NCBI GenBank assembly: GCA_016865015.1
Contig: CP018226.1
Location: forward strand, 837,001 to 901,000
DNA length: 64,000 bases
Source: Rhizobiales bacterium IMCC20636
GTDB lineage: Bacteria > Pseudomonadota > Alphaproteobacteria > Rhizobiales > GCA-2746425
Direction of reading: 5' to 3'
How positions within the stretch are numbered: the first letter of the stretch is position 1; each line of letters starts with the position of its first letter. Both the position numbers and the translations under genes were made by a program. The notes beneath the pieces were generated by a model. That model was not told the DNA's origin, did not search any database, and saw only the letters and a list, made by a program, of their open reading frames with translations. This document shows, one piece after another, positions 1,502-57,407 of the stretch.

Positions 1502-3292
1502 TCAGTAATGTCCGTTTGTTCGCATCAACGCATCGGCGCGGTTCTGAGCATTGTTCAATGCCTGATCCACGGTTTTTGCACCGAGCAGCATGTCGTGCAT
1601 TTCTTCGCCCGCGATGGCGATGATTGCCGAAATTTCCGGGACCGGTGGCCTGGGCCAGGATTGCAAAACGCCAGATCGTGCCATTTCATCCACAATGGAT
1701 ATCAGGGGCGAAATCTTCTTCACCTCCGGGTCCATGCAGACGCTGAACCGAGGGCTCACCAGGCTCCCATTCTCGATATAAAGTTTTACGGTTTGTGCCG
1801 AAGTAAGCGACGCCAAAGCTGTCCAGATTGGATTTATTCGCTCCGGAGCGATGTTGGAGGGAATGGCAAGGGCATAGCCACCAATGGGGGCCACGGGCCG
1901 TGCGCCGGGACCTGTGGGGTGTGGCAGATATTGTGTCTTGCCATATGCTGCCGAACGGCTGTCTGTTTCAAACAGCGGTGCAAGCAGGGTGGCACAATAG
2001 GCCATGGCAACTTCGCCATCAGCATAGCATCTGGCGCGTTCATACCATGACATGTTTAGAATTCCCGGAGGCGAATAGGAAACAAGTTCCTTGAAATATT
2101 CCGCCGCATTTCGGGCCTGACTTGAGTCAAACATCGGACGAAAATTTTCCCCCTCGACGCGTTCCCCATCAAAGCCGGATGCGGTTCTGGTCAGGTTCAG
2201 GACCGGTTGCCCGAATGCGCCCATCACAAACAGGAAAGTATGTCCCAGCGGTGTGCCGCGCGCGGCGTTCCAGGCAATTCCTGACATGCCGCTGAACGGA
2301 TCATGCAATTGTTTGGCGGCGGTCAGTGTCTTTTCAATATCCGTCGGTGGTTCCAGGTCATGATTTTCGAAGATATCCCGGCGATAGACCAGCAATTCAG
2401 GCGTTGTCTGCACTGGTATGCCATATTGCTTGCCCTTGTATCGGGCACTGGCCAGAGCTTCGGGATGGAAGTCAGACGTGTCCAGCCCGGTTGCATCTAT
2501 CAGAGGATCAAGGGGCAGAAAATGGCCCTTTTCGGCCATTTCCCCGAACCAGGGAAGATCACAGGCGATAATATCATAGGTCGAATTGTTGGCCGTTGAA
2601 TTGGTCAAAATTTCGTCGCGCAGTCGATCAATCGAGAGGGCACGGCTGCGTACACCAACCCCGAAGATCGTTTCGAACTGTTTCTTCAGCACATTCATTG
2701 CCATGAAGGTCGGGTCAGCATGAACCAGGATGCGCAGATCATTGTTTATGGAGAGTTTGGAATTCAGAATGCTTGGGGGTGGCAGAACGCTGCCCTGAGA
2801 GTATGAGGCACCAAAAAAATAGTCAGAGCTTTGCGATTGACCTGTGGGAAGGTTCACACCAAGCGTGCTGCCAATGAGGGAGTGGCTGCGACGGGCTAGT
2901 TCCTGCCATTCCTGAAGCATTTTTTCTGACGGATGCAGTGAAAAGGATTTGCCGGTCGCTGTCTTGACGCGTTTGACAATGACCCCCCGTTTCACCAGAG
3001 AGTCGATGCCGCGCATGGCAGTTCCGTAGGACAGATCGGAATTGGCCACCAATGAAGAACTGGTGGTGAGTTTGCCGCTCAGATGATTGCGCAGCAGATT
3101 GATCAGCATGCGTATTTCGGAGTAACCCGACTTGACTGAGAGCGCCCGCTCTATTTCGGTCTGCATCTGTTCCATGAAATCAAGAAATCGAGCCATTTCG
3201 TGGCTCGATTTCCCGAATGACGGCCGTTGGTCGCCCGTCTCATAGGGACCTTCCGGTTTTTTGCGACTATTCATTGCTGAATAGGTCGGCAT
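1502..3292 (-). CDS. Fusion regulator: MarR-like winged helix + family-1 extracellular solute-binding domain
   Basis: The protein has 596 residues and no signal peptide. Residues about 55-125 form a winged helix-turn-helix (TSSSLVANSDLSYGTAMRGIDSLVKRG recognition region followed by a wing). After a linker (126-184), residues about 185-590 resemble MalE-type family-1 binding proteins, with typical blocks such as YDIIACDLPWFGEMAEKG, YKGKQYGIPVQ and the late GGYALAIP. The start at 3292 is chosen because GGAGG lies 6 nt upstream; an in-frame ATG at 3322 has no such site. The ligand domain is of a different family from the RbsB-like binding protein of the adjacent importer. It probably acts as a cytoplasmic sugar-responsive transcription factor for the operon at 3372-8100. 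The role is inferred from architecture and position. Confidence 0.85.
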   Translation of the reverse strand: MPTYSAMNSRKKPEGPYETGDQRPSFGKSSHEMARFLDFMEQMQTEIERALSVKSGYSEIRMLINLLRNHLSGKLTTSSSLVANSDLSYGTAMRGIDSLVKRGVIVKRVKTATGKSFSLHPSEKMLQEWQELARRSHSLIGSTLGVNLPTGQSQSSDYFFGASYSQGSVLPPPSILNSKLSINNDLRILVHADPTFMAMNVLKKQFETIFGVGVRSRALSIDRLRDEILTNSTANNSTYDIIACDLPWFGEMAEKGHFLPLDPLIDATGLDTSDFHPEALASARYKGKQYGIPVQTTPELLVYRRDIFENHDLEPPTDIEKTLTAAKQLHDPFSGMSGIAWNAARGTPLGHTFLFVMGAFGQPVLNLTRTASGFDGERVEGENFRPMFDSSQARNAAEYFKELVSYSPPGILNMSWYERARCYADGEVAMAYCATLLAPLFETDSRSAAYGKTQYLPHPTGPGARPVAPIGGYALAIPSNIAPERINPIWTALASLTSAQTVKLYIENGSLVSPRFSVCMDPEVKKISPLISIVDEMARSGVLQSWPRPPVPEISAIIAIAGEEMHDMLLGAKTVDQALNNAQNRADALMRTNGHY

Positions 3293-3300
3293 GGCAATCC

Positions 3301-3371
3301 TCCAGATTGAAAAGGATACCATAAAGTCCAGAATGGATTTTTGCCTATCTAATTATATCCAGATTGGATAT
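3301..3371. promoter_or_regulatory. Repeated TCCA-N3-TGGA palindromes upstream of the fusion regulator
   Basis: ATATCCAGATTGGATAT (3355-3371) is a perfect palindrome with 7-bp arms and a 3-bp centre. A second TCCA-GAA-TGGA lies at 3327-3337 and a partial copy (TCCAGATTGA) at 3301-3310, just before the Shine-Dalgarno. The first abuts the stop codon of the upstream permease. The array is a good candidate for an autoregulatory operator of the regulator at 1502-3292. Confidence 0.6.
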
Positions 3372-4430
3372 TTATATAGGCGACTCCCGCTTCTTGTTCA
3401 GTAATTCCCCTCGGACAAGATCAACATCCCCCAAAACCTGTTGTCGCCTTTGATAGGTGTCGAACATCTGTGATCCGGTCTGGAACACAATGACCACCAT
3501 CAACAGGACCCCAAGATAAAGTTGAACCATGAAGGCTGGCGTTACATTGAACACCAGTCCGGTATTGAGGAAATTGACGGTCAGCGTTCCAATTGCGGCA
3601 CCGATGACCCCGCCGCGTCCACCAAGAATGCTGACCCCGCCAATGAAGGCAGCGACAGTGCCGGCCAGCAACAGATATTGCAGTCCAAGCGCCTGCGCGG
3701 TGCCGGATCTGAGGCCAATAATACAGCCTCCAAGGCCGGCACAGAAACCGGAAATACTGAACACCACCATCATCGGGCGCTTCAGATCGATGCCGGAGGC
3801 CAGGGCTTCCTTGCGGGCACCTCCAACGGCATAGATTTCTCGTCCATAGCGAGTGAATTGCATGAACAGGGCAACGGCCACAAACACGGCAATCACCAAA
3901 AGACTGGCGGGTGAAAAATACATGAACATCTTGGTGGAGATAAAATCGGGGATTGTGAAATCCGTCAGCATCACGGTTTTTTCTTCAGCGGCAAACAGCG
4001 AAACACCGCGCAGCAACATCAGTGTACCAACGGTCAGCACGATGGCCCGGATGCGCAGATATGCGATGAAGTAGCCTTGAATCAACCCCACAAGCGTTGA
4101 GATCGCAATGGCGATCAAAGCCGCATTTATGGCCCCGAGACTGTCTGTAAAGCGCACGACTATAACCGCTGCCAGGGCTGCATTGGAGCCAATCGAAAGA
4201 TCAATTTCGCCTGCGATGATACACAATGTCAGCGCAAGGCCGACCAGACCCAGAACGGCAAACCGTTCCATGATCGCATAGGTGGTTCGGTGGGTTGCAA
4301 ACAAATCATTGGAGAATGCGAAATAACCATAGACACAGACAGCCAACAAAACTGCGAATGCAAGATCGGGATTGTTGGTCACCCATAGCTTGGCTTTGGA
4401 GATGAAGCTGATATTGCTGGAATTGCTCAT
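3372..4430 (-). CDS. Ribose-type ABC transporter permease (second of two)
   Basis: The 352-residue membrane protein is of the RbsC/BPD_transp_2 family. It has 8-10 hydrophobic segments, the conserved GEIDLSIGSNAAL loop after the second or third segment, and the late GGRGGVIGAAIGT block that contacts the ATPase. It forms the membrane channel together with the permease encoded just upstream, which it overlaps by 4 nt (ATGA), suggesting translational coupling. The C-terminal tail after the last segment is charged and longer than usual. The substrate is probably a sugar or polyol, but the family does not define it. Confidence 0.93.
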   Translation of the reverse strand: MSNSSNISFISKAKLWVTNNPDLAFAVLLAVCVYGYFAFSNDLFATHRTTYAIMERFAVLGLVGLALTLCIIAGEIDLSIGSNAALAAVIVVRFTDSLGAINAALIAIAISTLVGLIQGYFIAYLRIRAIVLTVGTLMLLRGVSLFAAEEKTVMLTDFTIPDFISTKMFMYFSPASLLVIAVFVAVALFMQFTRYGREIYAVGGARKEALASGIDLKRPMMVVFSISGFCAGLGGCIIGLRSGTAQALGLQYLLLAGTVAAFIGGVSILGGRGGVIGAAIGTLTVNFLNTGLVFNVTPAFMVQLYLGVLLMVVIVFQTGSQMFDTYQRRQQVLGDVDLVRGELLNKKRESPI

Positions 4431-5455
4431 TCTTGAACCCTGCTTCCCCGGCGCACAAGCGCGAATACGATAATGCTGAAGACGATCATCAGGCCAACGG
4501 CCAGCACACGGGGGCCGCTGTTGAAGCCATGCAAAACCATCATGTTATCAACAGTTGAAATGAAGACTGCGCCAAGGCTTGAGCGCAGGGACGAGCCGAA
4601 CCCGCCCATGATCGAATTCCCCGCCACCATCACGGTTGCGATCACGAGAATGGTCATGTCTCCCGATGAACCGAATGATGAGGAGAAGTAGTTCACATGT
4701 GCGCTGGACACCTGTGCCGAAAAAGCGATGGCGACGAAGGCTGAACAGGCTGAGGCGATGATGCAGGTCTTGATGGCCATCGAGAAATTCTCATGACCTG
4801 TCGCCTTGCCTGCGGCCCGGTTTGATCCGATCAGATAGACCTGTCGACCAAATGTGGAATAGCGCAGCACCAATTCAGCAACGATGGCAATCAGGATGAA
4901 GGCCACTGTAATATTGGGCAGTCCCATAAATGAACCGGATCCCAACCATTCAGCGCCGTGAGGCCGGCGGAAGGAAATCACAAGATTGTCGCTCCACCAG
5001 GACGCGATCCCGAAGAACAATCCGGCTGCGCCAAGAGTTACCACAATCGGGTTTCCACCAAGGCCGATGAGTATCCCCTGAAGTGCGCCTGCAACAACAG
5101 CAACACCCATTGTGAACAGAAATGATAATTCGAACCCGTAGCCTGCGGACATAGCGGTGGCAAAGGCGACGATTGCGAGCGCGGCCGTCTCCTTCATCGA
5201 CAGCAGGAAGAAATTTCCGGAAAGCGTCACAAAGGTCAGCCCGATTGCCATGATTCCGACAAGGGCTGCATCCCGAATAATGGTTTTGAAATTGAACCAG
5301 GTCAGGAAGTTGGGTGCCGTGATCATTCCATAGGCAAAGGTCAGGACAAACAGTGCTACCAGTATGACAACCAGCCATGTGTATTTGTCGACGAGGTTCG
5401 CCAACCAAATCGGAGTTTTGGGCTGTCTGGAAATGGCAGGAGCATCAGCGTTCAT
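4427..5455 (-). CDS. Ribose-type ABC transporter permease (first of two)
   Basis: The 342-residue protein of the RbsC family has a cytoplasmic N-terminus (about 30 residues), repeated transmembrane segments, the TLSGNFFLLSMKETAA motif, which corresponds to the SGGIDLSVGS loop but is diverged, and a late GGFGSSLRSSLGAVFIST block. The divergence of the usual DLS loop suggests specialisation within the permease heterodimer. The gene lies 10 nt after the ATPase gene and overlaps the second permease gene. The two permeases most likely assemble as a heterodimer with the ATPase at 5466-6980. Confidence 0.92.
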   Translation of the reverse strand: MNADAPAISRQPKTPIWLANLVDKYTWLVVILVALFVLTFAYGMITAPNFLTWFNFKTIIRDAALVGIMAIGLTFVTLSGNFFLLSMKETAALAIVAFATAMSAGYGFELSFLFTMGVAVVAGALQGILIGLGGNPIVVTLGAAGLFFGIASWWSDNLVISFRRPHGAEWLGSGSFMGLPNITVAFILIAIVAELVLRYSTFGRQVYLIGSNRAAGKATGHENFSMAIKTCIIASACSAFVAIAFSAQVSSAHVNYFSSSFGSSGDMTILVIATVMVAGNSIMGGFGSSLRSSLGAVFISTVDNMMVLHGFNSGPRVLAVGLMIVFSIIVFALVRRGSRVQE

Positions 5456-5465
5456 GGTCTTGCCT

Positions 5466-6980
5466 CTAAAGGTTGGTTTCGTTGAAAGGATCGGTGATTT
5501 GCTTGAGAATGGCTGCTGCGGTCATATCTTTGAGGCCGATCTCGCCGATCTGCATGCCGCGGTAGAATGTGATCACCCGATCAGGCAGATTGGATATTTC
5601 CTGGATGTCGGTGGATGCCACGACAATTGCGGTGCCCTCGGCTGCCAGGTCACGGAGCTTTTGATAAATCTCCGCCCGTGCGCCAACATCAACGCCACGC
5701 GTCGGCTCATTTACGAGAATGACTTTCGGCCCGATTGAGAGCCATTTTCCAAGCGCCACTTTCTGCTGATTGCCGCCACTCAACACACCGGCCTGATCAT
5801 TCATCCGGCTGGTGTCGACGGTAAACTTTTCCGCAATGTCATATGCCAAGGTGTTTTCGGCCGAACGGGACATCCAACCCAGTTTCGAGACTGAGCCCAG
5901 TGACGGGGACGACAGGTTTTCCTTGATCGGGCGGCCCAGAAACAGACCATCAAGTTTACGGTCCTCCGAGCAATAGGCAATGCCCTTGGCGATAGCCTGT
6001 TTGGGATTGGCAGGCAGAAAACTCTCATCGCCAAAATCCAATGTTCCGGCGCGGGTTTTTCGTGCGCCGGCGATGGCTGCCAAAATCTCTCCGGAGCCGC
6101 TGCCAAGTTGACCTGCAAGGCCCAATATCTCGCCGGGGCGTATGTCGAAATTCACGGGCTCCAATAAACCATCGGGCCAAAGGTTGATGACCTGAATCAC
6201 GGGGTTCGCCACAGCTTTTCCGGCCTCGGGTAAGGCGCGAGCGGGGAACATATTGTCCAGTTCGCGGCCCAGCATCAGTTCAACCAGAGAATTGACATCC
6301 AGCGTGCTTGCAGCGCGGGCTTCCTGACTTTCTCCGTCGCGCAGAACTGTGATGCGATCGGTAATCTTGAAAATTTCATCCATGCGATGGCTGACATAGA
6401 TGATCGACTTGCCGCGCTTGGACAGACGCTTCACCATATCCAGAATGCGGATACTGTCAGACTCGCCCAGAGCGGCGGTCGGCTCATCCAGAATGAGAAC
6501 CTTGGGGTCATGAGCGATAAGCCGCGCAACTTCGACCAGATGCTGCTCGCCGACCGACAGACGGTCAACGCCAATGGCTGGGTCAATGCTGTCGAGCCCG
6601 ACTTCGTTGAGAAATGGCCGTGCCATTTTCACAAGCGTGCGCTTGTTGGCAAATGTTGGAACGTTATGACCGGCCAGAAACACGTTCTCGGCCACGCTCA
6701 TCGTATGGATCAGGCTCAGTTCCTGCTGGGCAATTGCTATTCCGGCCTGTTCCGCCCTGCCTGGATGAGGAAACCGGACATCCTCTCCATTGACCTGATA
6801 TTCACCGGTGAATCCGTTGTCAAAGCCACTGATGATTTTCACCAGAGTGGATTTTCCTGCGCCATTTTCACCAACAAGTCCCATCACCTCGCCAGGCAAT
6901 ATCTCGAAATCCACTCCTTTGAGGGCATGGATTGCGCCAAATGATCGTTTGATTGATGAGAGTTTCAGCAATGGCTGCAT
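5466..6980 (-). CDS. Ribose-type ABC transporter ATPase, two nucleotide-binding domains
   Basis: This is an RbsA-like fused double ATPase of 504 residues. The N-terminal half has Walker A GENGAGKST, an LSVGEQ signature and Walker B LILDEPTAAL. The C-terminal half has a degenerate Walker A (GQLGSGSGE), an LSGGNQQK signature and LVNEPTRGVD. The degenerate second site is usual for this family. The start at 6980 (MQPLLKLSSI) follows an AGGA site and matches the family N-terminus; earlier in-frame TTG and ATG codons at 7019 and 7013 would add about 13 unrelated residues. It powers import by the two permeases downstream. Confidence 0.93.
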   Translation of the reverse strand: MQPLLKLSSIKRSFGAIHALKGVDFEILPGEVMGLVGENGAGKSTLVKIISGFDNGFTGEYQVNGEDVRFPHPGRAEQAGIAIAQQELSLIHTMSVAENVFLAGHNVPTFANKRTLVKMARPFLNEVGLDSIDPAIGVDRLSVGEQHLVEVARLIAHDPKVLILDEPTAALGESDSIRILDMVKRLSKRGKSIIYVSHRMDEIFKITDRITVLRDGESQEARAASTLDVNSLVELMLGRELDNMFPARALPEAGKAVANPVIQVINLWPDGLLEPVNFDIRPGEILGLAGQLGSGSGEILAAIAGARKTRAGTLDFGDESFLPANPKQAIAKGIAYCSEDRKLDGLFLGRPIKENLSSPSLGSVSKLGWMSRSAENTLAYDIAEKFTVDTSRMNDQAGVLSGGNQQKVALGKWLSIGPKVILVNEPTRGVDVGARAEIYQKLRDLAAEGTAIVVASTDIQEISNLPDRVITFYRGMQIGEIGLKDMTAAAILKQITDPFNETNL

Positions 6981-7019
6981 TGAAAATTTCCTACCGAGGT
7001 CGGCGATTGTCATTTGCAA

Positions 7020-7049
7020 ATCCGGGGAAAGGTGAACCTCTCCCCGGAT
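7020..7049 (-). other. Intercistronic hairpin between binding protein and ATPase genes
   Basis: ATCCGGGGA (7020-7028) and TCCCCGGAT (7041-7049) are perfect 9-bp complements around a 12-nt loop, 22 nt after the stop of the binding protein gene. There is no T-run next to it on the transcript side. It probably stabilises the binding-protein mRNA or attenuates the downstream genes, a common arrangement in ABC operons. Confidence 0.6.
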
Positions 7050-7071
7050 CGTCAGTCAGTCAATTTTTTGC

Positions 7072-8100
7072 TTACCAGGCGCCGGAGCAGAGCTCGGAGA
7101 TGCCATAAAGCTTGCCGTCATAGCCACGCAGAGCGGTGGTTTCGATGGTATCTTTCGTCACGGCAGGGTTTGGCGTGAAGTTGATGTAGTTGGCCAATTT
7201 GCCGGTTTCGAGATATTCTTCCACCAGTTTGATTGCAAGCTGGCCTTCATGCAGAGGAGACTGCAATGTTGTGCCGAACTGTTTGCCTTCTTCGATGAGC
7301 TGTTTGTCACCATTGCACACTGTGCCAACAGCAATCACGTCGACGCCCATTTCATAACCAGCTTCTTCCAAGGCGTTAATTCCGCCTGTCAGAATTGCAT
7401 CATCCATACCATAGACAAAGTCGATGCCCTGATCTTTTACGCTGGCGATCAGTTTGGCTGCGCCCTTGTATCCATTGGCCTGACCAAAGCCTTCATCAAC
7501 ATCGCCGATGATCTTCAGATCAGATCCGGCAATGGCTTCCTTGAAAGCATTGATGGACAGACCATAGCCGCCATAGGAATGCGGATAGGACAGGGCGATC
7601 ACGTTGAAGCTTGTACCGCCGGCTGCTTTCTTGGCAGCGGCTGCTTCACGCATCATATAGCCAGCATTTCGTGCACGCAGACGATCATCAGGTCCCGCAT
7701 AACCAAAGATGTATTGTTTGTCCTGCTCGTTCGGCAGCTGATTGATCTTCAGGACCGGAACGCCGGTTTTGTGAAGAGCACGCAAGGAGCCCAGACCAGC
7801 AGTGGCATCGGACGGCCACCAGATGAAGACGTCTGGCAATTGGCCGGCAGCCAGAACCTGTTGGACCTGTTGATCCTGCTCGGCCTGATTGAACTGGTTT
7901 TCAAAGACTTTTATGTCGAAGCCCTTGAGAGCAGCCGTTTCCTTGATGCCCTTGATGAAGCGACCGATATAGGCCTCTCCGGCAGGGCCGTTAAATGAAA
8001 CGATAGATGCTTTTGCTTGCGCTAAAGCCGCTGATGACATGATGCCAACAGTCAGACACGCCGCAGCGGTTACGCCGACGGCCTTCTTAAAAAATGACAT
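7072..8100 (-). CDS. Ribose-type periplasmic substrate-binding protein
   Basis: The 342-residue protein has a clear Sec signal peptide (KKAVGVTAAACLTVGIMSSAALAQA) and an RbsB/Peripla_BP_4 fold: SIVSFNGPAGEAYIGRFIKG at the start of the mature part, the FIWWPSDA strand, and YGMDDAILTGGINALEEAG near the hinge. It binds a sugar-like ligand in the periplasm and delivers it to the permeases at 3372-5455. It is the first gene of the minus-strand operon, with a strong GGGAGG ribosome site. A late Cys (ELCSGAW) at the C-terminus could pair with the internal Cys of TVCNGDK. The ligand is not predictable from the sequence. Confidence 0.93.
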   Translation of the reverse strand: MSFFKKAVGVTAAACLTVGIMSSAALAQAKASIVSFNGPAGEAYIGRFIKGIKETAALKGFDIKVFENQFNQAEQDQQVQQVLAAGQLPDVFIWWPSDATAGLGSLRALHKTGVPVLKINQLPNEQDKQYIFGYAGPDDRLRARNAGYMMREAAAAKKAAGGTSFNVIALSYPHSYGGYGLSINAFKEAIAGSDLKIIGDVDEGFGQANGYKGAAKLIASVKDQGIDFVYGMDDAILTGGINALEEAGYEMGVDVIAVGTVCNGDKQLIEEGKQFGTTLQSPLHEGQLAIKLVEEYLETGKLANYINFTPNPAVTKDTIETTALRGYDGKLYGISELCSGAW

Positions 8101-8316
8101 GGTTTCCTCCCAATAGAATACTAGCTAATTTTTAGCCTGTGTCAGCTTGGCAGAATGACACAGGGAGTCTGAACATGTGATTTATCCAATTTGGCTAAAA
8201 TTTGTTCACTTTGGACAGAATGGGGATTTCATACTTGCCAGCAGATCACCAGACTTGGCCAAAACCTGCCGGGCACCGATGGTTCCGGCCAACGAGAATT
8301 TCAGGGGATGGTTCAG
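8101..8316. promoter_or_regulatory. Divergent control region between ABC operon and SDR gene
   Basis: This 216-bp region separates the minus-strand ABC operon from the plus-strand SDR genes. CCTGTGTCA (8136-8144) and TGACACAGG (8156-8164) form a perfect 9-bp inverted repeat with an 11-bp centre. About 20 bp further on, ATCCA-ATT-TGGCT (8184-8196) resembles the TCCA-N3-TGGA palindromes found upstream of the regulator at 1502-3292. Both are candidate operators. No clear -35/-10 pair was assigned. Confidence 0.5.
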
Positions 8317-47156: not shown

Positions 47157-48284
47157 TTACTGACCGCCCCAGGCAGCCGGATAGTTGGCCATATCTTCAC
47201 AGCCGCACATTGCATAATGCAGCGGTGGCATAGCCGGATTGACCATGCTGTCCAAAGTCTCCTGCGTGATTGCTGGCTGCGGCAGAACCCATTCCGGACC
47301 AGGTACCGCTTCACCATTCAACACACGTTCTGCAGCGATGATCGCAGTGCGCCACTGATAGTTCGGGTAAGTCGGTGCAATCGCCGTCAGTTTCAAATCC
47401 TGCCATTTGCGCAGGAAGTCCTGCTGGTCTTCACCAACGAAGACAGGGATGTCATAGCCGCCGTCTTCGAAAGCTTCGACAGCTGCAACAGCAGTTGCAC
47501 CGGCATCCATCCACACGGCGTCAATGCTGCCGCGCTGCAGATAGTCTTCCACGATCGATTTGGTTTTTGCATTGTCGCCGTCAGTGAATTCGGCACCAAC
47601 AATGTTCAAACCGGCATTTTCAAGAATTTTGCGGCCCGCAGAATAACGGGTTTCCAGCACATCCACGCCCGGAAGAATCCGGAGCATCAGAACATTCGCG
47701 CCTTCTTCAACATTGTCGACGATGAATTCAGCACCCTGAATGCCGAAACCATAGCCACCCACCGGGTGAACAAAGGTGACAGGGCAGTCGGTGTTGACGC
47801 CGCGGTCAAACACCACGACCGGCAACTGGGCACAGGCTTTTTCGACTGCAGGCGTGAGTGCTGCAGTTGTGTTTGGCGAAACGATCAGCAGATCGCATTT
47901 GCCGCCCGCCAGCAAATCGTCAATATCGGCAATCTGCTTGTCATCGGAACCTTCAGCGTCGACGTGAATGAATTCACCGATGCTTGGGGTGGCAGCAACC
48001 TCTTCGGTCATGTTGGTGTAGCCTACAACACGCCATGGGTTGTTTACCCCGGCATTGGAGAAACAAATGGTGTGCTTGCCTTCCACTGCCATGGATGATG
48101 TGTCGACCATGTTATCTTCAAGATATTGCACCCAAGGCATGCCTTCGGGGCCCATCGGGGTCGCAGTCAGCTGTTCCTGCTGTTTTGCAAACTCCGCCGG
48201 ATCATCAAAATTCTGGGCCTGCGCAAGCGTGTTTACGGAAAACGCCACTCCCGCAGCCACAAACAATCTCAATATTTTCTTCAT
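47157..48284 (-). CDS. Periplasmic substrate-binding protein (Peripla_BP_4 type)
   Basis: The 375-residue protein has a signal peptide (KKILRLFVAAGVAFSVNTLAQAQ) and a PBP type I fold: FSNAGVNNPWRVVGYTNM, DLLIVSPNTTAALTPAVEKAC, VVFDRGVNTDCPV and AVWMDAGATAVAAVEAF. A C-terminal tail has paired cysteines (CGCEDM). It is the last gene of the minus-strand operon that starts at 52696, so the SBP follows the permeases. It closely resembles the sensor domain of the regulator at 44360-45748. The ribosome site is AGGAGG. Confidence 0.93.
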   Translation of the reverse strand: MKKILRLFVAAGVAFSVNTLAQAQNFDDPAEFAKQQEQLTATPMGPEGMPWVQYLEDNMVDTSSMAVEGKHTICFSNAGVNNPWRVVGYTNMTEEVAATPSIGEFIHVDAEGSDDKQIADIDDLLAGGKCDLLIVSPNTTAALTPAVEKACAQLPVVVFDRGVNTDCPVTFVHPVGGYGFGIQGAEFIVDNVEEGANVLMLRILPGVDVLETRYSAGRKILENAGLNIVGAEFTDGDNAKTKSIVEDYLQRGSIDAVWMDAGATAVAAVEAFEDGGYDIPVFVGEDQQDFLRKWQDLKLTAIAPTYPNYQWRTAIIAAERVLNGEAVPGPEWVLPQPAITQETLDSMVNPAMPPLHYAMCGCEDMANYPAAWGGQ

Positions 48285-48358
48285 ATTACGGTCCTCCTGT
48301 TTGGTTTAGGTCAGTTACTTCGCAGTGATTGATACGCCGCAAAATCTTGTGGTCGGGC

Positions 48359-49348
48359 CTAGCGCCCCGTTCGTTTACGCCGGTACATAGCCAGCGCCAC
48401 CGCGATGATCAGGATCAAGCCCTGAACAACCTGGCGCACGGGTTGTGGCAGCCCAAGAAAATTCAATAGTGTGAATATGGCCTGCAGGCTGAGTGCCCCG
48501 GCAATCGCAGCTGGCACCGAGCCGCGTCCGCCAAGCAATTGCGCGCCGCCGAGCACGGCGGCGGTGATCGCCTGCAATTCGTAACCATTGCCAACATCTG
48601 TCGATACACCGGCAAATCCGCCGAGTAGAATTCCGGTGACCACAGCGCTGAGGGAAGACACCACGAATGCCAGAATGCGCACGCGATTGACTGGCACGCC
48701 GCCAAGCCGGGCTGCTTGCGGATTGTCGCCAATGGCGTGAACCATGCGGCCAAAATTGGTGCGATGCATCAGCCAATACAGTGCAAAACCCACCACGATC
48801 AGCACGATCAGCGCAACCGGCAGCATGCGGATGACCGGTATATCCATGATGTTGACGCGGCCGAAGAACCTGAACGTGTCAGGCAAATAGCCACGGGGTG
48901 ATCCGCCCGACCACATGAACGACACGCCGGTCAGCGTGATCATCATGCCAAGCGTGGCGATCAGTGATGGCACTTTGAGGAAGCAGACCACCAAACCGTT
49001 GATCAGGCCAACCGCAAGGCCGATGCATAACATCACTGGGATGACCCACAGCGTGGCGCTCGGATCATTATTGGTGAGCATTGAGGATCCGACCACGACC
49101 AGCGTGATCAGCGAGCCAACAGACAGATCAAAACCGCCTGACACAAGTACATAGACCTGACCTGCGGCAAGGATCGCCAGAGGGGCAGCCCGTTTCAGAA
49201 AATTCATATAGCCGGTTGGCTCGGCAAAATTCGGATTTTGCAACAGGATCGCAGCAATCAGCGCCGCCAGCAGGAAATAGACCGGATTGATGTGCGGCAG
49301 AGCGCGTTTTTTGGGCGCTTCGGCTGAACTGAGGGGTTGATCGGTCAT
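48359..49348 (-). CDS. Ribose-type ABC permease (second)
   Basis: The 329-residue RbsC-like protein has repeated hydrophobic segments, the SGGFDLSVGSLITLVVVGSS loop and the late GGAQLLGGRGSVPAAIAGAL block. It overlaps the first permease gene by 4 nt and is 74 nt before the binding protein gene. The two permeases probably form a heterodimer. Confidence 0.93.
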   Translation of the reverse strand: MTDQPLSSAEAPKKRALPHINPVYFLLAALIAAILLQNPNFAEPTGYMNFLKRAAPLAILAAGQVYVLVSGGFDLSVGSLITLVVVGSSMLTNNDPSATLWVIPVMLCIGLAVGLINGLVVCFLKVPSLIATLGMMITLTGVSFMWSGGSPRGYLPDTFRFFGRVNIMDIPVIRMLPVALIVLIVVGFALYWLMHRTNFGRMVHAIGDNPQAARLGGVPVNRVRILAFVVSSLSAVVTGILLGGFAGVSTDVGNGYELQAITAAVLGGAQLLGGRGSVPAAIAGALSLQAIFTLLNFLGLPQPVRQVVQGLILIIAVALAMYRRKRTGR

Positions 49349-50331
49349 GCCACCATCCTCTTGGATCGAACGGCATAAAAGGCCACGGCGGCAACAATGA
49401 TGACGCCGCGCATGACCTGTTTTGCAAAGGCGTCAACGCCAGCAACATTGAAAATCGAGTCGATCAGCGAGAAGATCATCATGCCAGCCATGGTGCCCCA
49501 GATTCCGCCGCGTCCGCCTGCCAACACCGTGCCGCCAATGACAACCACGGCAATGGATTCCAGATCATAAACGCCGTCCGATCCGATCCAGGGCGCACCG
49601 GAGCGCAGCCGACTGGCCAGATAGAGACCGGCAATGGCTGCCAGAACGGAGCAAATGATATGGGCATACACAACCACCCGGTCGGTCTGGATGCCGGCAA
49701 ACCGTGCCGCGTCCTTGTTGCCGCCAACCGAATAGATGTCGGATCCGAATTTGGTGAAGCGCAACACCACCCATGCGGCAATCGCCAACACCAGTAGAAA
49801 GATCAGACTGGCCGGCAGTCCGCCAATTTCGCCATAGGCAAACAGCTGAAACTCGACGGGTACCGAGCCGGCAAAATTCGAAACGACGGCAGACAGGCAC
49901 CCCTGGATGATCAGGCTCATGCCCAGAGTGGCAATCAGCGGATTGACTTCCAGCTTGGCGATCACAAGCCCGTTGAGCAGACCAACCAGACCGCCAAGAG
50001 CCAATGCGGCAAGGATAGCGGGCAGGATCATGGCCGGATCACCATTCATGATCACCGAGGCCAACACCGCTGTTGCGGAAATCAGGCTGGCAACAGAAAG
50101 ATCAATCGATGCGACCAGAATTGCAAATGTCTGGCCGATGGCGGTGATCCCCAGAGCAATCGACCGACCCAGAATCGAGATCAGATTGGAGGCCGTCAGA
50201 TATTGGGTCTGGCCGGTGCTGACAGCGATGATCACGTAGATCATCAATGCGGCCAATAACAGGATGGCGGGTGCCCAGACCTCAAATCGAAAGCCGGTTT
50301 TGGAAGCGGTTGTCATGGCCGGGTCGCTCAT
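49345..50331 (-). CDS. Ribose-type ABC permease (first)
   Basis: The 328-residue RbsC-like protein has the ASIDLSVASLISATAVLAS loop and the late GGTVLAGGRGGIWGTMAGMMI block. It overlaps both the ATPase gene and the second permease gene by 4 nt, a pattern that implies translational coupling. It forms the channel with the permease at 48359-49348. Confidence 0.93.
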   Translation of the reverse strand: MSDPAMTTASKTGFRFEVWAPAILLLAALMIYVIIAVSTGQTQYLTASNLISILGRSIALGITAIGQTFAILVASIDLSVASLISATAVLASVIMNGDPAMILPAILAALALGGLVGLLNGLVIAKLEVNPLIATLGMSLIIQGCLSAVVSNFAGSVPVEFQLFAYGEIGGLPASLIFLLVLAIAAWVVLRFTKFGSDIYSVGGNKDAARFAGIQTDRVVVYAHIICSVLAAIAGLYLASRLRSGAPWIGSDGVYDLESIAVVVIGGTVLAGGRGGIWGTMAGMMIFSLIDSIFNVAGVDAFAKQVMRGVIIVAAVAFYAVRSKRMVA

Positions 50332-51848
50332 GCTGCCACCTCGGTTTCACCGGTTGCAGCCAGCATGATATCGTGTTCCGTCGCACCATGGGTGAATTCG
50401 TCCACAATTGTGCCGGCACGCATGACCAATATCCGGTCTGCGGCGCCGATGACTTCCGGCAGATCCGAAGAGATCATCATCACGGCAGCGCCACCGCGCG
50501 CCAGATCACGCATGAGATGGTAGATGCCCGCCTTGGCGTTGACATCGATTCCGCGGGTCGGTTCGATGAAAATGAGAACTTTGGGCTTGAGCGCCAGCCA
50601 GCGTGCGACAATGGCTTTCTGCTGATTACCTCCGGATAAATTTCCAATATCCTGATCGTATGAGGAGGCTTTGACCTCCATGGCGTCAAGCAAACTGTCC
50701 ATTGAAGCAAGGTCTGCGTATTGATTGGCCTTGTGGCTGGAAAGCAGAGTGTCAAAGGCGCGGGCGGTCAGCATGCCATTGTCACGCACCGACTGCATCA
50801 ACACCAAACCTTCTCCCTTGCGGTCTCCAGGCAAAAGGCCAATGCCAGCCTGAATTGCATCGCGTGGATTGGTGAATGCCACTGTCTTGCCGTTCAACCT
50901 TACCTTTCCGGATGTAAACGGGTGCTCGCCGAAGAGAGCCATTGCCAATGCTACCCGACCCGCCCCCTGAATTCCCGCAAACCCGAGAATTTCACCGGCT
51001 GACAAATCAAAATTGATATTCGACACGCGATCATTCTGGCCATTTCGAACGGACAGGACCTTGGCACCAATTTCATTTTCTGTGGCAAAGGGCGCATAAA
51101 AATCTGCGATGTCGCGCCCCACCATGGCGCGGACGATGTCGCCTGGTTTTGGAACATGATCGAATTGGGCCGCGACTTCGCCATCCTTGAGAACGGTGAC
51201 GCGGTTGGCCAACCGGGTGACTTCACGCATCCGGTGGGTGATGTAGATGATCGCAGTGCCTCGCTCGCGCAACCGGTCCACGGTTTCGAACAGGACCTCG
51301 CATTCTGCTTCATTCAAGGCAGCTGTTGGTTCGTCCATAACGACGACCTTCGCATTCAGCGAGATAGCCTTGGCGATTTCGACCATCTGCTGGGTCGCAA
51401 CGTCGAGGTCGGCGACGATTGCGTTGGGGTCGACACGGGTTCCGGCCCCGAACAGATCCAGGACCCGTCGCGTTTCAGCGCGCATCGCTGCATAGTCGAT
51501 GATGCCGCGCCGCGTGGGTTCGCGCCCGAGAAAAATGTTTTGTGCAACCGTGCGTTCCGGCAGCAGGGAGAATTCCTGATAGATAACGGAAATTCCACCC
51601 TTCAAAGACTGAACCGGATGGGTGAAGCTCTTGGTGGCACCATTCAGAAGAATTTGACCAGCATCGGGCTGATAGACCCCTGAGAGAATTTTGATCAGAG
51701 TGGATTTACCCGCGCCATTTTCCCCGACAAGTGCGTGCACTTCGCCAGGCTCAACCGCGAAACTGACATCATTGAGTGCCCGCACGCCCGGAAAGCTCTT
51801 GGAAATTCCGCGCATTTCAATGACGGGAGTAACGCCGTTTTTGTTCAT
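50328..51848 (-). CDS. Ribose-type ABC ATPase, two nucleotide-binding domains
   Basis: The 506-residue RbsA-like ATPase has Walker A GENGAGKST, a diverged N-terminal signature (LDVATQQMVEIA), Walker B VVMDEPTAAL, and a C-terminal half with GIQGAGRVA, LSGGNQQK and LIFIEPTRGID. The second Walker B has Ile instead of the usual Asp before EP, but the family often degrades this half. It overlaps the isomerase gene upstream by 4 nt and the permease gene downstream by 4 nt. Confidence 0.92.
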   Translation of the reverse strand: MNKNGVTPVIEMRGISKSFPGVRALNDVSFAVEPGEVHALVGENGAGKSTLIKILSGVYQPDAGQILLNGATKSFTHPVQSLKGGISVIYQEFSLLPERTVAQNIFLGREPTRRGIIDYAAMRAETRRVLDLFGAGTRVDPNAIVADLDVATQQMVEIAKAISLNAKVVVMDEPTAALNEAECEVLFETVDRLRERGTAIIYITHRMREVTRLANRVTVLKDGEVAAQFDHVPKPGDIVRAMVGRDIADFYAPFATENEIGAKVLSVRNGQNDRVSNINFDLSAGEILGFAGIQGAGRVALAMALFGEHPFTSGKVRLNGKTVAFTNPRDAIQAGIGLLPGDRKGEGLVLMQSVRDNGMLTARAFDTLLSSHKANQYADLASMDSLLDAMEVKASSYDQDIGNLSGGNQQKAIVARWLALKPKVLIFIEPTRGIDVNAKAGIYHLMRDLARGGAAVMMISSDLPEVIGAADRILVMRAGTIVDEFTHGATEHDIMLAATGETEVAA

Positions 51849-52857: not shown

Positions 52858-53883
52858 CTATTTCGATTGCAGAAGATCGAGTCCCATCAAAATGTCGCGA
52901 GACGCAGGTTTGCGCCAGATTGACTGGTAGCATTCAATCACATTCGACCGATCGACCATGACGCCTGGCAGCGCAACCCAGTCGGGGCAGGGGCGTTCCA
53001 ACAATGCTGTGATGGTGGTGCGTGCGACGACCTCACCCAGTTGAAAAGGACGTTGTCCGGCAATCCCAACGACAGGGCCGCCTTTTGCTAGGTTTTCCGT
53101 GACTTCCTGTCCAAGGTCCACTGTGGTGACAGGCAGGGAGGGATTTCGTTTCGAAACGGCCCTGATGACGTCAATACAGGGTGAATCCCAAACCACGAAC
53201 AAACCTGCAATGTCGGGATGATCATTCATCAACTGATCAGCTTCGTTTCCGGCGCTGTCGATGGTTGAGAACCGCGTTGTTTTCACCGAAACGTCACTGC
53301 GGTTGACTTCCATCCACCGGTTGAAAGCGATTTCGCGCTCGTTTGTGGCAAAGAAATCCGCATCATAGGCGACCACTCCGACAGTTGCGCCAGGTGGAAG
53401 GTGGGTGGACAAGAGTTCGGCCCCGATTTTTCCCAAACCAAAATTGTCTGCCGAAACAAGAGACACATAATCTTTGCCCGGAAGCATTCCGGTGGGGGCA
53501 TTGTCAATCAGGATGAGTTTCGTGCCCGCGTGTGAGATTGCAAGATGGGCGTCCGTGACGTTGGTATTGTCGATGGGGAGTGAGATAATTGCATCGGGAG
53601 ATTCCTGGCTCAAACGCTCCAATGCAGCGATTTGCGATCTGGAAGAGAAATTGCAGTCAACCACGTCTATGACAATTGCGCCGCATTCACCCAGTGTTCC
53701 GACCATGCCCTGAACGAGCTGTTTGGCCATGTCACTTTCAAGGGTGTGCATGACAATCGCGATTCGCAGTTTTTTGGCACGAGCCGCAGCTATGTCCTGT
53801 GGCAAAAGCGAAACCCGTGCAGGTGGCGACGCACGTTCACCGTGTGGTCCAAGTCCGACTATTGTCATCGTGTTTTCCCTCAT
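52858..53883 (-). CDS. Leaderless (cytoplasmic) periplasmic-binding-protein-like sensor
   Basis: The 341-residue protein has a PBP type I fold without a signal peptide or a helix-turn-helix: the N-terminus MRENTMTIVGLGPHGERASP is hydrophilic, and the fold begins with LRIAIVMHTLESDM. It is paralogous to the binding protein at 56289-57407: GKDYVSLVSADNFG against GKDYVSVVSADNYG, and TTVDLGQEVTENLA against TTIDLGENVAINMA. It is encoded 10 nt after the ROK-type regulator, so it is likely to be a cytoplasmic ligand sensor for it. ATG 53883 or 53868 both have GAGGG sites; a TTG at 53943 would overlap the ROK gene. Confidence 0.82.
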   Translation of the reverse strand: MRENTMTIVGLGPHGERASPPARVSLLPQDIAAARAKKLRIAIVMHTLESDMAKQLVQGMVGTLGECGAIVIDVVDCNFSSRSQIAALERLSQESPDAIISLPIDNTNVTDAHLAISHAGTKLILIDNAPTGMLPGKDYVSLVSADNFGLGKIGAELLSTHLPPGATVGVVAYDADFFATNEREIAFNRWMEVNRSDVSVKTTRFSTIDSAGNEADQLMNDHPDIAGLFVVWDSPCIDVIRAVSKRNPSLPVTTVDLGQEVTENLAKGGPVVGIAGQRPFQLGEVVARTTITALLERPCPDWVALPGVMVDRSNVIECYQSIWRKPASRDILMGLDLLQSK

Positions 53884-53893: not shown

Positions 53894-55276
53894 TCATCTA
53901 CTAGGTGGGGGCGGGGGGCCGTCATCAGCGGGTTGCGTGACAACGTCCAGAGTTTCTAATCCTTGCAACAGGCTGGGGTGCCGTGTCGGAGATCCCAGCA
54001 AGATCCAGGCTTTTAGGAAGACCGGATCAAACAACGCTTCGGCAGCGATGCCGGCAGCGCCCAGAAGGGCGGAGGAACTGCTCATCTGCGATCGCAGGAT
54101 GCGCAGATCCCGGGTGACAAGCGGATGTGATGCGCCATAAACAGCTTCCCGAATGGTGGCGAGCAGGATGTCATTTGTGTGGGCAATCGAGCCGGCCAAG
54201 ACAATGAGTTGCGGGTTCAGCATATTGGCAAGGGTTGCAACGATACCCCCGATGAGGCGACCGCTTTGCCCGACGATTTCCGTACTCACGACATCGCCTG
54301 CCTGTGCGGCCTGACAAACCTCAATTGCCGTGATTTCGCCTTCACGGGCAAGCACATCGGCCAGATAGGCACTCTCTCCCGACTGAGCCGCCGCGTTGCC
54401 GCGCTGCCTGATCATATCTGCCCCGGCCATGGCATCAAGCGAGCCTGTGGTGTCGCCTGATGTCACTGGCAGTTGCCCGATGAGACCAACCGCACCTGCG
54501 GCACCGTGATAGGGCTGGCCGTTGCTGACCAGGCCCGCAGCAATGCGCTGGCCGACTTTCACAAACAGCATGGTTTGTTGCCCAATCCCTGCGCCGCCCT
54601 GCAGTTCTCCCATCGTCATCGTCTCGACGCTGGAATGCATCAATACGGGTGCATGAAAGCGTTGCATCAAGGTTTCAACAAGACTGCTCTTGTCCCAATT
54701 GGGAAGAAAGTCGGGCGTCTCGAACAACAATTCAGAGTTGGGATCGGTGATCACCGGTCCGGGGACGGAAATTGAAATGCCCCACAAATCCGGCGTTTCC
54801 GATTGCCGGGTCATCAGCCAGTTGATCAGGGCGCAGATGCGGTCCACCGTCATGGCTTGATCGGTGATGTCGGTTGCTTCGTGATGCTCGGTCAGCAGCT
54901 TGCCGCTAAGATCGGCAAGGCCGACGCCAATTGCGGACTGATCCAGCGTGGCAACAATCAACCGCGCACGGTCTTTGGTGAACTGGACGAGGCGCGGTGC
55001 CCGGCCCCCTGTGGCAACGCCTGTTTCACTTTCATCGATCAGCCGAAGGTCTGAAAGGGTGGCAAGCCTGTCGGCGATGATGGCGCGCCCATATCCGCTG
55101 ACACGTTCCAGTTCCTGGCGCGTGGTCGCTTGGCCCAACCGCACAAGGTTGAGCACATCAACAAGGCTTGCTGCAGCGGTTTCGCCGCTGCGCTGGCGTC
55201 CTTTTGCCCTGTGTCGGTTCGGTGCTGATTGGTCTGCTTGCACGAAAATGCGTCTCTCATTGGTCAGTCGTTTCAA
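53894..55276 (-). CDS. ROK-family transcriptional regulator with degenerate sugar site
   Basis: The 460-residue protein has an N-terminal MarR-like helix-turn-helix (ATTRQELERVSGYGRAIIADRLATLSDLRLI) and a ROK domain. The motifs of sugar-binding ROK proteins are changed: the ENDANAA motif with the catalytic Asp reads HSSVETM (214-220), and GEIGH reads GLIGQ (264-268). The CxCGxxGC zinc site is absent. It therefore probably does not bind or phosphorylate a sugar in the usual way. A proline-rich tail (DDGPPPPPS) is present. The TTG start at 55276 has no good ribosome site and is uncertain. The leaderless binding protein follows directly. Confidence 0.85.
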   Translation of the reverse strand: MKRLTNERRIFVQADQSAPNRHRAKGRQRSGETAAASLVDVLNLVRLGQATTRQELERVSGYGRAIIADRLATLSDLRLIDESETGVATGGRAPRLVQFTKDRARLIVATLDQSAIGVGLADLSGKLLTEHHEATDITDQAMTVDRICALINWLMTRQSETPDLWGISISVPGPVITDPNSELLFETPDFLPNWDKSSLVETLMQRFHAPVLMHSSVETMTMGELQGGAGIGQQTMLFVKVGQRIAAGLVSNGQPYHGAAGAVGLIGQLPVTSGDTTGSLDAMAGADMIRQRGNAAAQSGESAYLADVLAREGEITAIEVCQAAQAGDVVSTEIVGQSGRLIGGIVATLANMLNPQLIVLAGSIAHTNDILLATIREAVYGASHPLVTRDLRILRSQMSSSSALLGAAGIAAEALFDPVFLKAWILLGSPTRHPSLLQGLETLDVVTQPADDGPPPPPSR

Positions 55277-55311: not shown

Positions 55312-55348
55312 CTTTTGCTGAAAATATGCAAAAGATTGCCTACTTTTG
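55312..55348. promoter_or_regulatory. Candidate ROK operator
   Basis: CTTTTGC (55312-55318) and GCAAAAG (55328-55334) form an inverted repeat with a 9-bp centre, and CTTTTG recurs at 55343-55348. The T-tract/A-tract arms with a 9-bp centre resemble NagC/Mlc-type sites. It lies between the ROK gene and the divergent isomerase gene. Confidence 0.55.
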
Positions 55349-55427
55349 TATTATACTAATTGACTATAGTCCGAATTATGCCTAAGAAATTGACCAACGG
55401 CTGGAATAGCTGAAGGGAGGACATCAA

Positions 55428-56240
55428 ATGAGTGACTGGAAGTTGGCCTATCACGCGAATTGCTGGGGTGATTTGGGTGGAAATGCAGAGGGTGTGACTT
55501 CGATCACGCAACTCAGCTATCGCACCTTTGGCGATATGGACCGGGCCTGTGCAGATATTGCTGCCGCAGGGTATACCGGCGTTGAATTGTTTGACGGTAA
55601 TTTGCTGGATTCCAGTGCCGCCGAGTTCCGCACCATGCTTGCCAATAATGGTTTGGTTCTGGTTGCGGCCTATTCAGGTGCCAACTTTATTTTCGATGAT
55701 ATCCTGCCAGAGGAACTGGCGCGCATCACCCGCGCTGCCGACCGCGCTGCAGAACTGGATGCCGAGCATCTGGTTGTTGGTGGAGGTGCCAAGCGTTTTG
55801 ATGGCATCCGCGATACCGACTATGACAAATTGGGCGCAGCACTCGACCGCGTGAAAGCGCTCGCTGAGGAGCGCAAGCTTACAGCGCATTATCACCCGCA
55901 TCTGTCCACGATTGTTGAAGGGCCGAACGAAGTGCGTCGCATCTTCGATCTGACTTCAATTGATTTCTGCCCTGATACAGCACATCTGGCCGCAGCCGGT
56001 GGCGATCCGGCGCAGATGATCCGCGAACACGCTGACCGGATTTCCTACATTCACCTCAAGGGTTTTCAAAAGGATCCTTTTGCATTCACACCGCTTGATC
56101 GCGGTGATGTGCCGACCGATGCGATTATCGCTGCCATGCGCGACACAAAATTCGCGGGCTGGGTCTGCACCGAACTCGATGCCTGGGACGACCCCGCTGC
56201 CGGGGCACGTGCCAGCATGGACTATCTCAACCAAGCCTGA
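55428..56240 (+). CDS. TIM-barrel isomerase/epimerase, IolE-like
   Basis: The 270-residue protein has the AP endonuclease 2 TIM-barrel: LAYHANCWGDLGG, AAAGYTGVELFDGNLL, AHYHPHLSTIVEG, IDFCPDTAHLAAAGG (Asp and His) and GWVCTELDAW (Glu). The pattern is similar to inosose dehydratase IolE and sugar 3-epimerases. The ribosome site is AAGGGAGG. It is the first gene of the plus-strand operon with the binding protein, oxidoreductase, ATPase, permease and ABM protein. Confidence 0.88.
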   Translation: MSDWKLAYHANCWGDLGGNAEGVTSITQLSYRTFGDMDRACADIAAAGYTGVELFDGNLLDSSAAEFRTMLANNGLVLVAAYSGANFIFDDILPEELARITRAADRAAELDAEHLVVGGGAKRFDGIRDTDYDKLGAALDRVKALAEERKLTAHYHPHLSTIVEGPNEVRRIFDLTSIDFCPDTAHLAAAGGDPAQMIREHADRISYIHLKGFQKDPFAFTPLDRGDVPTDAIIAAMRDTKFAGWVCTELDAWDDPAAGARASMDYLNQA

Positions 56241-56288
56241 CAGGCGAAAACCAACGGGGCGCGCCCCACTCTTCTGGGAGGAAGAAAT

Positions 56289-57407
56289 ATGCTAACACGT
56301 CGCACACTATTTGGATCCATCGCCGCTTTCGCGATGGTCCTGTCCGCAATGCCAGCAATGGCTGATCCGGATGCTGCATTGGCCGCATTGCAGGGTAATG
56401 TCCTGTCCAAGGGTCCTAATGGCGAAGACCCGAGCCCAGCCGCTGATCTGACGCTCAGCGCTGCAGAACTCGATCAAATCAAGGCGATGAATGCAACCGC
56501 AGCCATTGTCATGCATTATGGTGGCAATGATTGGTCACGCGCTCAGATCGAAGGCCTCAAATTCCAGTTTGGTGAAATGGGCATCGAAGTGATTGCCGTT
56601 ACCGATGCCGGCTTCAAGCCTGAAAAGCAGGTTGCCGACATTGAAACTGTCATGGCGCGCAAGCCCGACGTCATGGTTTCTGTTCCCACTGACCCATCCG
56701 CGACTGCCTCAGCCTATCTGGCTGTTGCTGCTGCAGGCGTCAAAATCGTGTTCATGGAAAACACCCCTCCGGGCATGACTGTGGGCAAGGATTATGTCTC
56801 GGTCGTTTCCGCTGATAATTACGGCAATGGTGTTGCAGCTGCTCATCTGATGGCGAAAGCTCTGGGTGAAGATGGTGGCAAGATCGGTCTCGTCTTTCAT
56901 GCCGCTGACTTCTTTGTGACACGTCAGCGCTACGACGCTTTCAAGGCGACGATCGCTGAAAACTATCCGAACATCGAGATTGTTGCTGAACAGGGAATCG
57001 GCGGACCGGATTTCAGTGGTGATGCAGACAAGGTTGCATCCGCCATGCTGACATCTCATTCCGATCTCGACGGCATCTGGGCTGTTTGGGATGTGCCTGC
57101 CGAAGGTGTGATCTCGGCGGCTCGTGTCGCAGGCCGTGACGACCTCGTCATCACCACCATCGATCTTGGCGAAAATGTCGCGATCAACATGGCGCAGGGC
57201 GGTTACGTCAAGGGTCTGGGCGCACAGCGGCCTTTCGATCAGGGCGTCGCTGAGGCCATTCTGGCGGGCTATGGCCTTCTGGGCAAGGAAGCACCAGCTT
57301 TTGTCGCGCTTCCCGCTTTGCCGGTCAGCAAGGATAATCTGCTGGAAGCCTGGCAGACTGTCTATCGCACCGAAGCGACAGACAACATCAAGAAAAGCAT
57401 GAACTAG
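56289..57407 (+). CDS. Periplasmic substrate-binding protein (Peripla_BP_4 type)
   Basis: The 372-residue protein has a signal peptide with twin Arg (LTRRTLFGSIAAFAMVLSAMPAMA), which may direct it through the Tat or Sec route. The fold has AAIVMHYGGNDWSRAQIEGL, VPTDPSATASAYLAVA, SADNYGNGVAAAHLM and a late TIDLGENVAINMAQGG. It supplies the ATPase and permease at 58697-61226 and is the extracytoplasmic paralogue of the leaderless protein at 52858-53883. The ribosome site is GGGAGG. Confidence 0.93.
   Translation: MLTRRTLFGSIAAFAMVLSAMPAMADPDAALAALQGNVLSKGPNGEDPSPAADLTLSAAELDQIKAMNATAAIVMHYGGNDWSRAQIEGLKFQFGEMGIEVIAVTDAGFKPEKQVADIETVMARKPDVMVSVPTDPSATASAYLAVAAAGVKIVFMENTPPGMTVGKDYVSVVSADNYGNGVAAAHLMAKALGEDGGKIGLVFHAADFFVTRQRYDAFKATIAENYPNIEIVAEQGIGGPDFSGDADKVASAMLTSHSDLDGIWAVWDVPAEGVISAARVAGRDDLVITTIDLGENVAINMAQGGYVKGLGAQRPFDQGVAEAILAGYGLLGKEAPAFVALPALPVSKDNLLEAWQTVYRTEATDNIKKSMN

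Follow-up and report, generated by a model that had tools for sequence, protein, structure and literature searches.

Sensors built from substrate-binding protein (SBP) domains are a known kind of regulator, with LacI, AraR and SgrR as examples. AraC-type XylR combines an SBP-like type I domain with a DNA-binding domain, and in the pairs ChvE-VirA, LuxP-LuxQ and TorT-TorS a periplasmic SBP is paired with a sensor kinase. In the LacI family, the cytosolic type I domain is homologous to SBPs, and GntR-type AraR has the same combination, according to PMC4052901; PMC13060122 likewise describes an N-terminal helix-turn-helix (HTH) and a type II SBP domain in DsvR, a homologue of SgrR. In the present study, a 64,000-nucleotide stretch of Rhizobiales bacterium IMCC20636 (the window; positions 837001-901000 of a 4.79 Mb genome in a single contig, CP018226.1) was analysed, in which three SBP-type sensors lie next to sugar-type ATP-binding cassette (ABC) importers. 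Sensor (a), at 1502-3322(-), joins a MarR-like winged helix to a type II SBP domain; sensor (b), at 44360-45748(+), joins an IclR-type HTH to a type I SBP domain; and sensor (c) is split between a ROK regulator at 53894-55276(-) and a leaderless type I SBP encoded behind it at 52858-53868(-). The importer of (a) lies on the same strand (3372-8100), that of (b) downstream and convergent (47157-51848), and that of (c) divergent (56289-61226). A sequence-only reading had named these three sensors, their three different DNA-binding partners and the importer beside each; Pfam searches, a structural model and the gene order bear this out, and in a tree the type I sensor domains fall among SBPs and not in the LacI clade.

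Like LacI, AraR and XylR, these regulators would sense their ligand in the cytosol through an SBP-like type I domain joined to a DNA-binding domain. They differ from the LacI family in that the helices are of the IclR, MarR-like and DeoR types, the sensor domains fall among SBPs, and the sensor of (c) is a separate protein. With exported ABC SBPs, the sensors share the SBP domain and the ligand pocket positions, without a signal peptide. In contrast to SgrR and DsvR, which carry SBP_bac_5, sensor (a) joins SBP_bac_1/8 to a MarR-like winged helix and is linked to importers; Pfam gives only SBP_bac_1 and SBP_bac_8 in this protein, and no SBP_bac_5 domain was found. The ROK domain is common to NagC, Mlc and (c), whereas in (c) the sugar/zinc site is lost and the next gene encodes the leaderless SBP. 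By analogy with the SBP-kinase pairs, a separate SBP would signal to a regulator by contact whether ligand is bound, but in (c) both proteins are predicted to be cytosolic and the partner itself binds DNA. SBP-domain sensors are not new as a kind, and the partners of the window fusions are; what surprises most is the split pair of ROK and leaderless SBP. No description of this pair or of MarR-SBP and IclR-SBP fusions was found in searches of open-licence papers, judged from listings, which is weak evidence of novelty.

Herein, we propose that importer SBPs have been recycled into cytosolic sensors of the sugar type, (a) and (b) as one-component regulators and (c) as a split ROK/SBP regulator, and we regard this as probable. 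In (a) and (b), the SBP domain would close on the imported ligand and alter DNA binding by the attached MarR-like or IclR-like helix. In (c), the ROK protein would bind a dyad in the gap between its own gene and the divergent importer operon, the imported sugar would be bound by the leaderless SBP and not by the site-decayed ROK protein, and the ligand state of the SBP would reach the ROK protein by contact, most likely lifting repression. With less assurance, though still leaning in favour, we suggest that Alphaproteobacteria hold a widespread split regulator of this design, in which a site-less ROK protein is signalled by a leaderless SBP from the next gene while the importer operon is unchanged. 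The features of the (c) locus are the following; the starts of the oxidoreductase, ATPase and permease were not refined.

52858-53868 (-): leaderless type I SBP, 336 amino acids (Peripla_BP_4 4e-26; longest open frame to 53943)
53894-55276 (-): ROK regulator with degenerate sugar/zinc site (Pfam ROK PF00480, 2e-32)
55312-55334: candidate operator CTTTTGC-N9-GCAAAAG between the ROK gene and the importer operon, the sole exact copy in the 4.79 Mb genome
55428-56240 (+): TIM-barrel protein
56289-57407 (+): SBP
57486-58697 (+): Gfo/Idh/MocA oxidoreductase
58694-60271 (+): ATPase
60096-61226 (+): permease

Five observations support (c), namely the leaderless start, the steady gene pairing, the conserved dyad, the loss of the ROK site and the likeness of the pocket to that of the linked SBP, whereas the cytosolic location, the contact between ROK and SBP, the binding of ROK to this dyad, the direction of control and the sugar identity are what we infer. 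First, conservation places the start of the leaderless SBP at ATG 53868, replacing TTG 53943 of the longest frame; this ATG lies 25 nucleotides past the ROK stop and is preceded by an AGGGA-like ribosome site (by eye). Among relatives (the best 80 of 132 from a scan of genome contigs), the leaderless open reading frame was called in 78, all except L232 and L237, and in 75 of these 78 proteins the methionine nearest GLGP(H/R)GE lies four residues before it. The most hydrophobic 12-residue stretch has a median of 0.36 and a maximum of 1.73 in the leaderless proteins (n=78), and a median of 2.15 and a minimum of 1.71 in the linked SBPs (n=75); no signal peptide was found in the leaderless SBP by hydropathy and the conserved start.

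Second, in all 78 loci with a called leaderless frame, the gene immediately upstream on that strand encodes a ROK protein, and 74 of these loci also hold an SBP match in the available stretch. All 12 plasmid records listed with a ROK of at least 41% identity carry the leaderless SBP. Among 297 genomes of the order, 12 others have relatives at 43-56% identity, each beside a ROK, a TIM-barrel protein, an SBP and an ATPase; calls are missing for the oxidoreductase in L139 and L140 and for the permease in L138 and L139. By their titles, most of the named relatives belong to Rhizobiales or Rhodobacterales; one is a Vibrio, and a few are metagenome bins with other labels. In the alignments, L099 was omitted from A4 as a near copy, and the leaderless rows of G053 and G089 from A3. 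The window ROK itself appears from its sequence to comprise a ROK domain and an N-terminal DNA-binding helix: its best NCBIfam match is NagC (3e-39, 135 bits, below the cut-off of 650), the model spanning residues 60-422, and no separate HTH was matched in it by Pfam.

Third, the dyad CTTTTGC-N9-GCAAAAG, which the ROK protein presumably binds, recurs in the gap between the ROK and TIM-barrel genes. In 74 such gaps (the window and 73 of the 80 named loci; the other seven gave no gap) it was exact in 19, and present in 49 with at most one mismatch, 65 with at most two and 73 with at most three; elsewhere in the same loci (1,086,395 bp) the corresponding counts were 0, 0, 3 and 33. With a spacer of 7, 8, 10 or 11, no gap region matched at two mismatches or fewer. 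A half-site-like GCAtAact precedes the dyad in the gap consensus. A genome-wide search at up to two mismatches gave 44 places against 32 for the reversed pattern, and no wider regulon is therefore claimed.

Fourth, the ROK proteins of these pairs have lost the sugar/zinc site, which we take to consist of an Asp, E/DxGH and CxCGxxGCxE. The paired ROK rows number 88 (84 distinct, four duplicates) from 91 loci, L221, L256 and L263 being outside the length filter, and the columns were set by an Arthrobacter ROK that faces the same importer gene set without a leaderless SBP. Not one of the 88 rows has Asp in the catalytic column or Glu/Asp in the ExGH Glu column, where L, M or Q stands instead; His is kept in nine and the zinc motif in three. 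By comparison, seven unpaired relatives (the Arthrobacter protein and six of the 17 other plasmid matches listed below 41% identity) have Asp in six, Asp or Asn at the Glu column in seven, and His and the zinc motif in all seven. No SBP gene was found behind these seven ROK genes; in L314 and L315 a transporter and a transposase stand there. The ROK protein would seem to have lost its sugar site because sensing is now done inside the cell by another binding protein, and we infer that this task has moved from the ROK protein to the cytosolic SBP. Such a sensor swap may be seen as a series, from a ROK alone with an intact site (Arthrobacter), through a ROK with partner and zinc motif (L138-L140), to a ROK with partner and lost site (the other members of the 88 rows).

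Fifth, the pocket of the leaderless SBP resembles that of the SBP of the divergent importer, to which it is 36% identical, including the segment past the signal peptide. The pocket was compared at positions that we assume from a contact list of ribose-binding protein, the sequence behind the list having been checked. The leaderless and linked SBPs agree at 35% of positions overall, 63% of 15 contact positions and 84% of eight polar ones, and random sets of 15 columns reached 63% agreement in 3/500. With five further SBPs from this subfamily, agreement is 41% (contact) and 61% (polar) for the leaderless proteins, and 27% and 50% for the linked SBP.

Sensor (b) and its surroundings comprise the following.

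42858-44327 (-): amidohydrolase, accompanying (b) in 7/7 loci (the window and six others)
44360-45748 (+): sensor (b), 462 amino acids; HTH_IclR 9-55, type I SBP domain 127-384
45745-46278 (+): small IclR/MarR-type HTH protein, with a 4-nucleotide overlap with the (b) gene
47157-51848 (-): importer of (b); type I SBP 47157-48284, permeases 48359-49348 and 49345-50331, ATPase 50328-51848

The fusion was recognised by Pfam in both parts (HTH_IclR 2.7e-6, 27.5 bits, cut-off 22; Peripla_BP_4 3e-33), and no IclR effector domain was matched in it at E<=0.1, Peripla_BP_4 standing in its place. In the seven aligned sequences, the window's own included, the linked importer is present at four loci. The small HTH protein is a likely partner of (b): counterparts of its gene lie next to relatives of (b) in L142, L145, L146 and L147. 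On plasmid pPAN1 of Paracoccus pantotrophus (L312:5944-7941(+)), an IclR-HTH, a periplasmic binding protein (PBP) domain and a second IclR-like HTH form one 665-residue protein, which matches the window pair at 36% over 412 residues and then 27% over 91 residues (E 2e-6). Because the two are fused in this protein, (b) and the small HTH protein are suggested to work together.

For sensor (a), the features are as follows.

1502-3322 (-): sensor (a), 606 amino acids in the longest frame; winged helix at about residues 40-154, SBP domain at about 195-602
3326-3338: candidate operator of (a), GTCCAGAATGGAT, one mismatch to ATCCA-N3-TGGAT
3357-3369: exact candidate operator of (a), ATCCAGATTGGAT, within the 49 bp that precede the sensor gene
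3372-8100 (-): ribose-type importer of (a); permeases 3372-4430 and 4427-5455, ATPase 5466-7019, type I SBP 7072-8100
8184-8196: candidate operator with one mismatch, preceding the importer operon of (a)

This protein is without a leader, and its SBP_bac_1 match (3e-22) covers residues 233-491. No Pfam model, MarR models included, matched its HTH at E<=0.1. The N-terminal domain is nevertheless predicted to have a MarR winged-helix fold: an AlphaFold model of residues 38-158 (model confidence, pLDDT, 88) matched MarR-type structures in Foldseek (ST1889 2.6e-4 as best, MexR 3e-4, YusO 1.3e-3, MepR 2.3e-3; five matches at E<=0.001), and the AlphaFold2 model of the whole protein (pLDDT 84.8) has a MarR-like topology and an SBP part that matches structure 5iai. 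Sensor (a) was matched in 27 of the 297 genomes at E<=1e-40, and 29 of the 30 matches listed are MarR-SBP fusions; in the congener L153 the fusion is 94% identical and the importer 95-98%. A dyad, ATCCA-N3-TGGAT, occurs in the promoter regions of nine relatives' loci, with seven exact copies in 2,910 bp against two in 175,479 bp elsewhere. No site at one mismatch or fewer is present in two of these nine loci. In the window, the gap upstream of the sensor gene contains two copies, one of them exact, and a third precedes the importer operon; a further exact copy lies inside the sensor gene at 1688-1700, and five more places match with one mismatch.

The origin of the type I sensors was followed in a quick tree. 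The genome's 17 classical LacI proteins group in one clade (99) apart from SBPs and sensors, and the leaderless proteins form another (99), within one subfamily (100) together with the linked SBPs and others. IclR fusions (100) join the exported SBPs L148-L151 (99), and the linked SBPs of the window type are the next sister (95). These positions indicate independent recruitments out of SBPs, with (c) alone coming from the subfamily of its linked SBP. The sequence-only reading had explained the recurrence by a matching of importer and regulator specificity, and accordingly each sensor might have been copied from the SBP of the neighbouring importer. For the ROK pair, the shared subfamily and the similar pocket agree with this idea. 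The MarR-type fusions offer a second point in its favour, since all fusion SBP domains together have as their sister the exported SBP that lies beside the fusion gene of G204 (93/88, tree with nearer outgroups). The IclR domain, however, is nearest to exported SBPs of other importers, and its pocket agrees at 65% with L148-L151 against 50% with the linked SBP, which belongs to a sister subfamily. The MarR type carries a type II SBP domain and yet adjoins a ribose-type importer, as in the window, where the linked SBP is of type I, in 17 of the 28 annotated loci (with the type I SBP gene seen in 16); eight adjoin a type II importer, and in three the locus ends early or no importer was seen. Importers in these loci were labelled by the best BLAST match, either to proteins of the window or to one SBP of L125. 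Specificity matching by copying is thus unsupported as a general rule, the ROK pair alone using the linked SBP's subfamily with a similar pocket, and copying as the source of every sensor is doubtful. An exported SBP, L171, had been nested in the MarR-SBP clade (98/90), which would suggest re-export of a sensor domain; with nearer outgroups this placement vanished as a long-branch effect.

A little less probable still is a role of the leaderless SBP as a buffer or carrier of sugar in the cytosol, feeding the Gfo/Idh/MocA dehydrogenase, with the ROK protein controlled otherwise, by a pathway intermediate or by the importer. The retained pocket positions and the presence of a dehydrogenase and a TIM-barrel protein in the operon would suit such a role, and control of ROK regulators by a protein partner is known, Mlc being controlled by PtsG. 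On the other hand, the leaderless gene comes after the ROK gene in 78/78 loci, not after catabolic genes, and the decay of the ROK site goes with the pairing. Finally, the refutation named in the sequence-only reading, that common LacI-type regulators, or exported SBPs whose start was miscalled, account for these proteins, is very improbable, since the LacI HTH (PF00356) was unmatched at E<=0.1 in sensor (a), the IclR fusion and the leaderless SBP, the LacI proteins stand in their separate clade and the start is conserved with no hydrophobic leader seen, even if relatives are publicly annotated as 'extracellular solute-binding protein' or 'substrate-binding domain-containing protein'.

Several results weigh against the proposal of recycled SBP sensors and its split regulator. 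The closest relative of the leaderless clade is the exported SBP L071 (93; signal peptide by eye) and not the linked SBP, and the leaderless pocket agrees at 63% with L071 and at 56% with three other SBPs, near the level of the linked SBP; because of this agreement, the pocket indicates a group of ligands and not one. The trees also disagree in part, the window SBP grouping with L261, L130, L131 and L269 and its leaderless partner with L196, L203 and L222. As for the ROK site, the paired proteins of L138, L139 and L140 keep the zinc motif, and the unpaired proteins used for comparison are only 30-35% identical and were chosen from one listing. Among the six other ROK proteins of the genome, Asp is present in four and the zinc motif in two (four lack the zinc motif and two lack Asp), so that loss of the site alone is no proof. 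On Ochrobactrum plasmid L308, the leaderless SBP stands behind a 5'-truncated ROK remnant only. In Arthrobacter sp. ERGS1:01 (L318:2893-5231), the unpaired ROK gene overlaps a following LacI gene by four nucleotides, a possible parallel pairing of a ROK with an SBP-like partner. For (b), no conserved dyad or operator was found.

The suggestion that such modules spread between importer islands received some support. At E<=1e-30, 55 plasmid records matched the leaderless SBP of (c) and 36 matched sensor (a); 25 plasmid matches are listed for the leaderless SBP, the first 13 at 45% identity or more. On a conjugative Agrobacterium plasmid, the MarR-SBP and ROK/SBP modules lie side by side near a Tn3 transposase, and on a Skermanella plasmid a MarR-SBP gene adjoins transposition genes. 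No relatives of (b) were found in a scan of viral contigs.

The recurrence proved wider than the window, with two more fusions in the same genome.

L017:6153-7250 (-): second IclR-HTH and Peripla_BP_4 fusion of the genome (domain search; neighbouring gene IclR-like by eye)
L030:5253-7109 (-): three-part regulator of DeoR HTH, Peripla_BP_4 and DeoRC, 11 kb beyond the window end (domain search)

The 57 Peripla_BP_4 matches of the genome comprise 32 exported SBPs, 21 LacI-type proteins and four non-LacI cytosolic sensors (N-termini read), the last being the window IclR fusion, the window leaderless SBP and these two fusions. Including the MarR-type fusion, five non-LacI sensors are known in the genome, and four of them lie within 75 kb, which under random placement has a probability of about 1e-4 (post hoc test); the abundance of importers in the region may explain part of this clustering. 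There are 44 type II SBP matches, 42 of them outside the window, where 22 frames were examined, and this partial coverage may have missed further type II sensors. If the proposal is true, the split ROK/SBP regulator and the nearby MarR-, IclR- and DeoR-type fusions represent a repeatable path from nutrient importer to gene switch. Some database entries named 'extracellular solute-binding protein' probably represent cytosolic regulators, whole or in part, and such mislabelled entries would skew transporter counts and ligand assignments.

Further observations concern the rest of the genome. The DeoR-type regulator of L030 adjoins a type II importer. About 3 kb beyond the window end, an SBP-like frame (L173:2521-3687(-)) has no evident signal peptide and a weak SBP_bac_1 match at G000:C1:903821-904516; it overlaps a CaiB-like CoA-transferase gene, with an SMP-30-like gene and a MalK-type ATPase close by (names by eye). 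The effector domains of four LacI-HTH proteins (G000:C1 1388774, 4654118, 4495982 and 1576085) group with SBPs in the tree, apart from the 17 classical LacI proteins.

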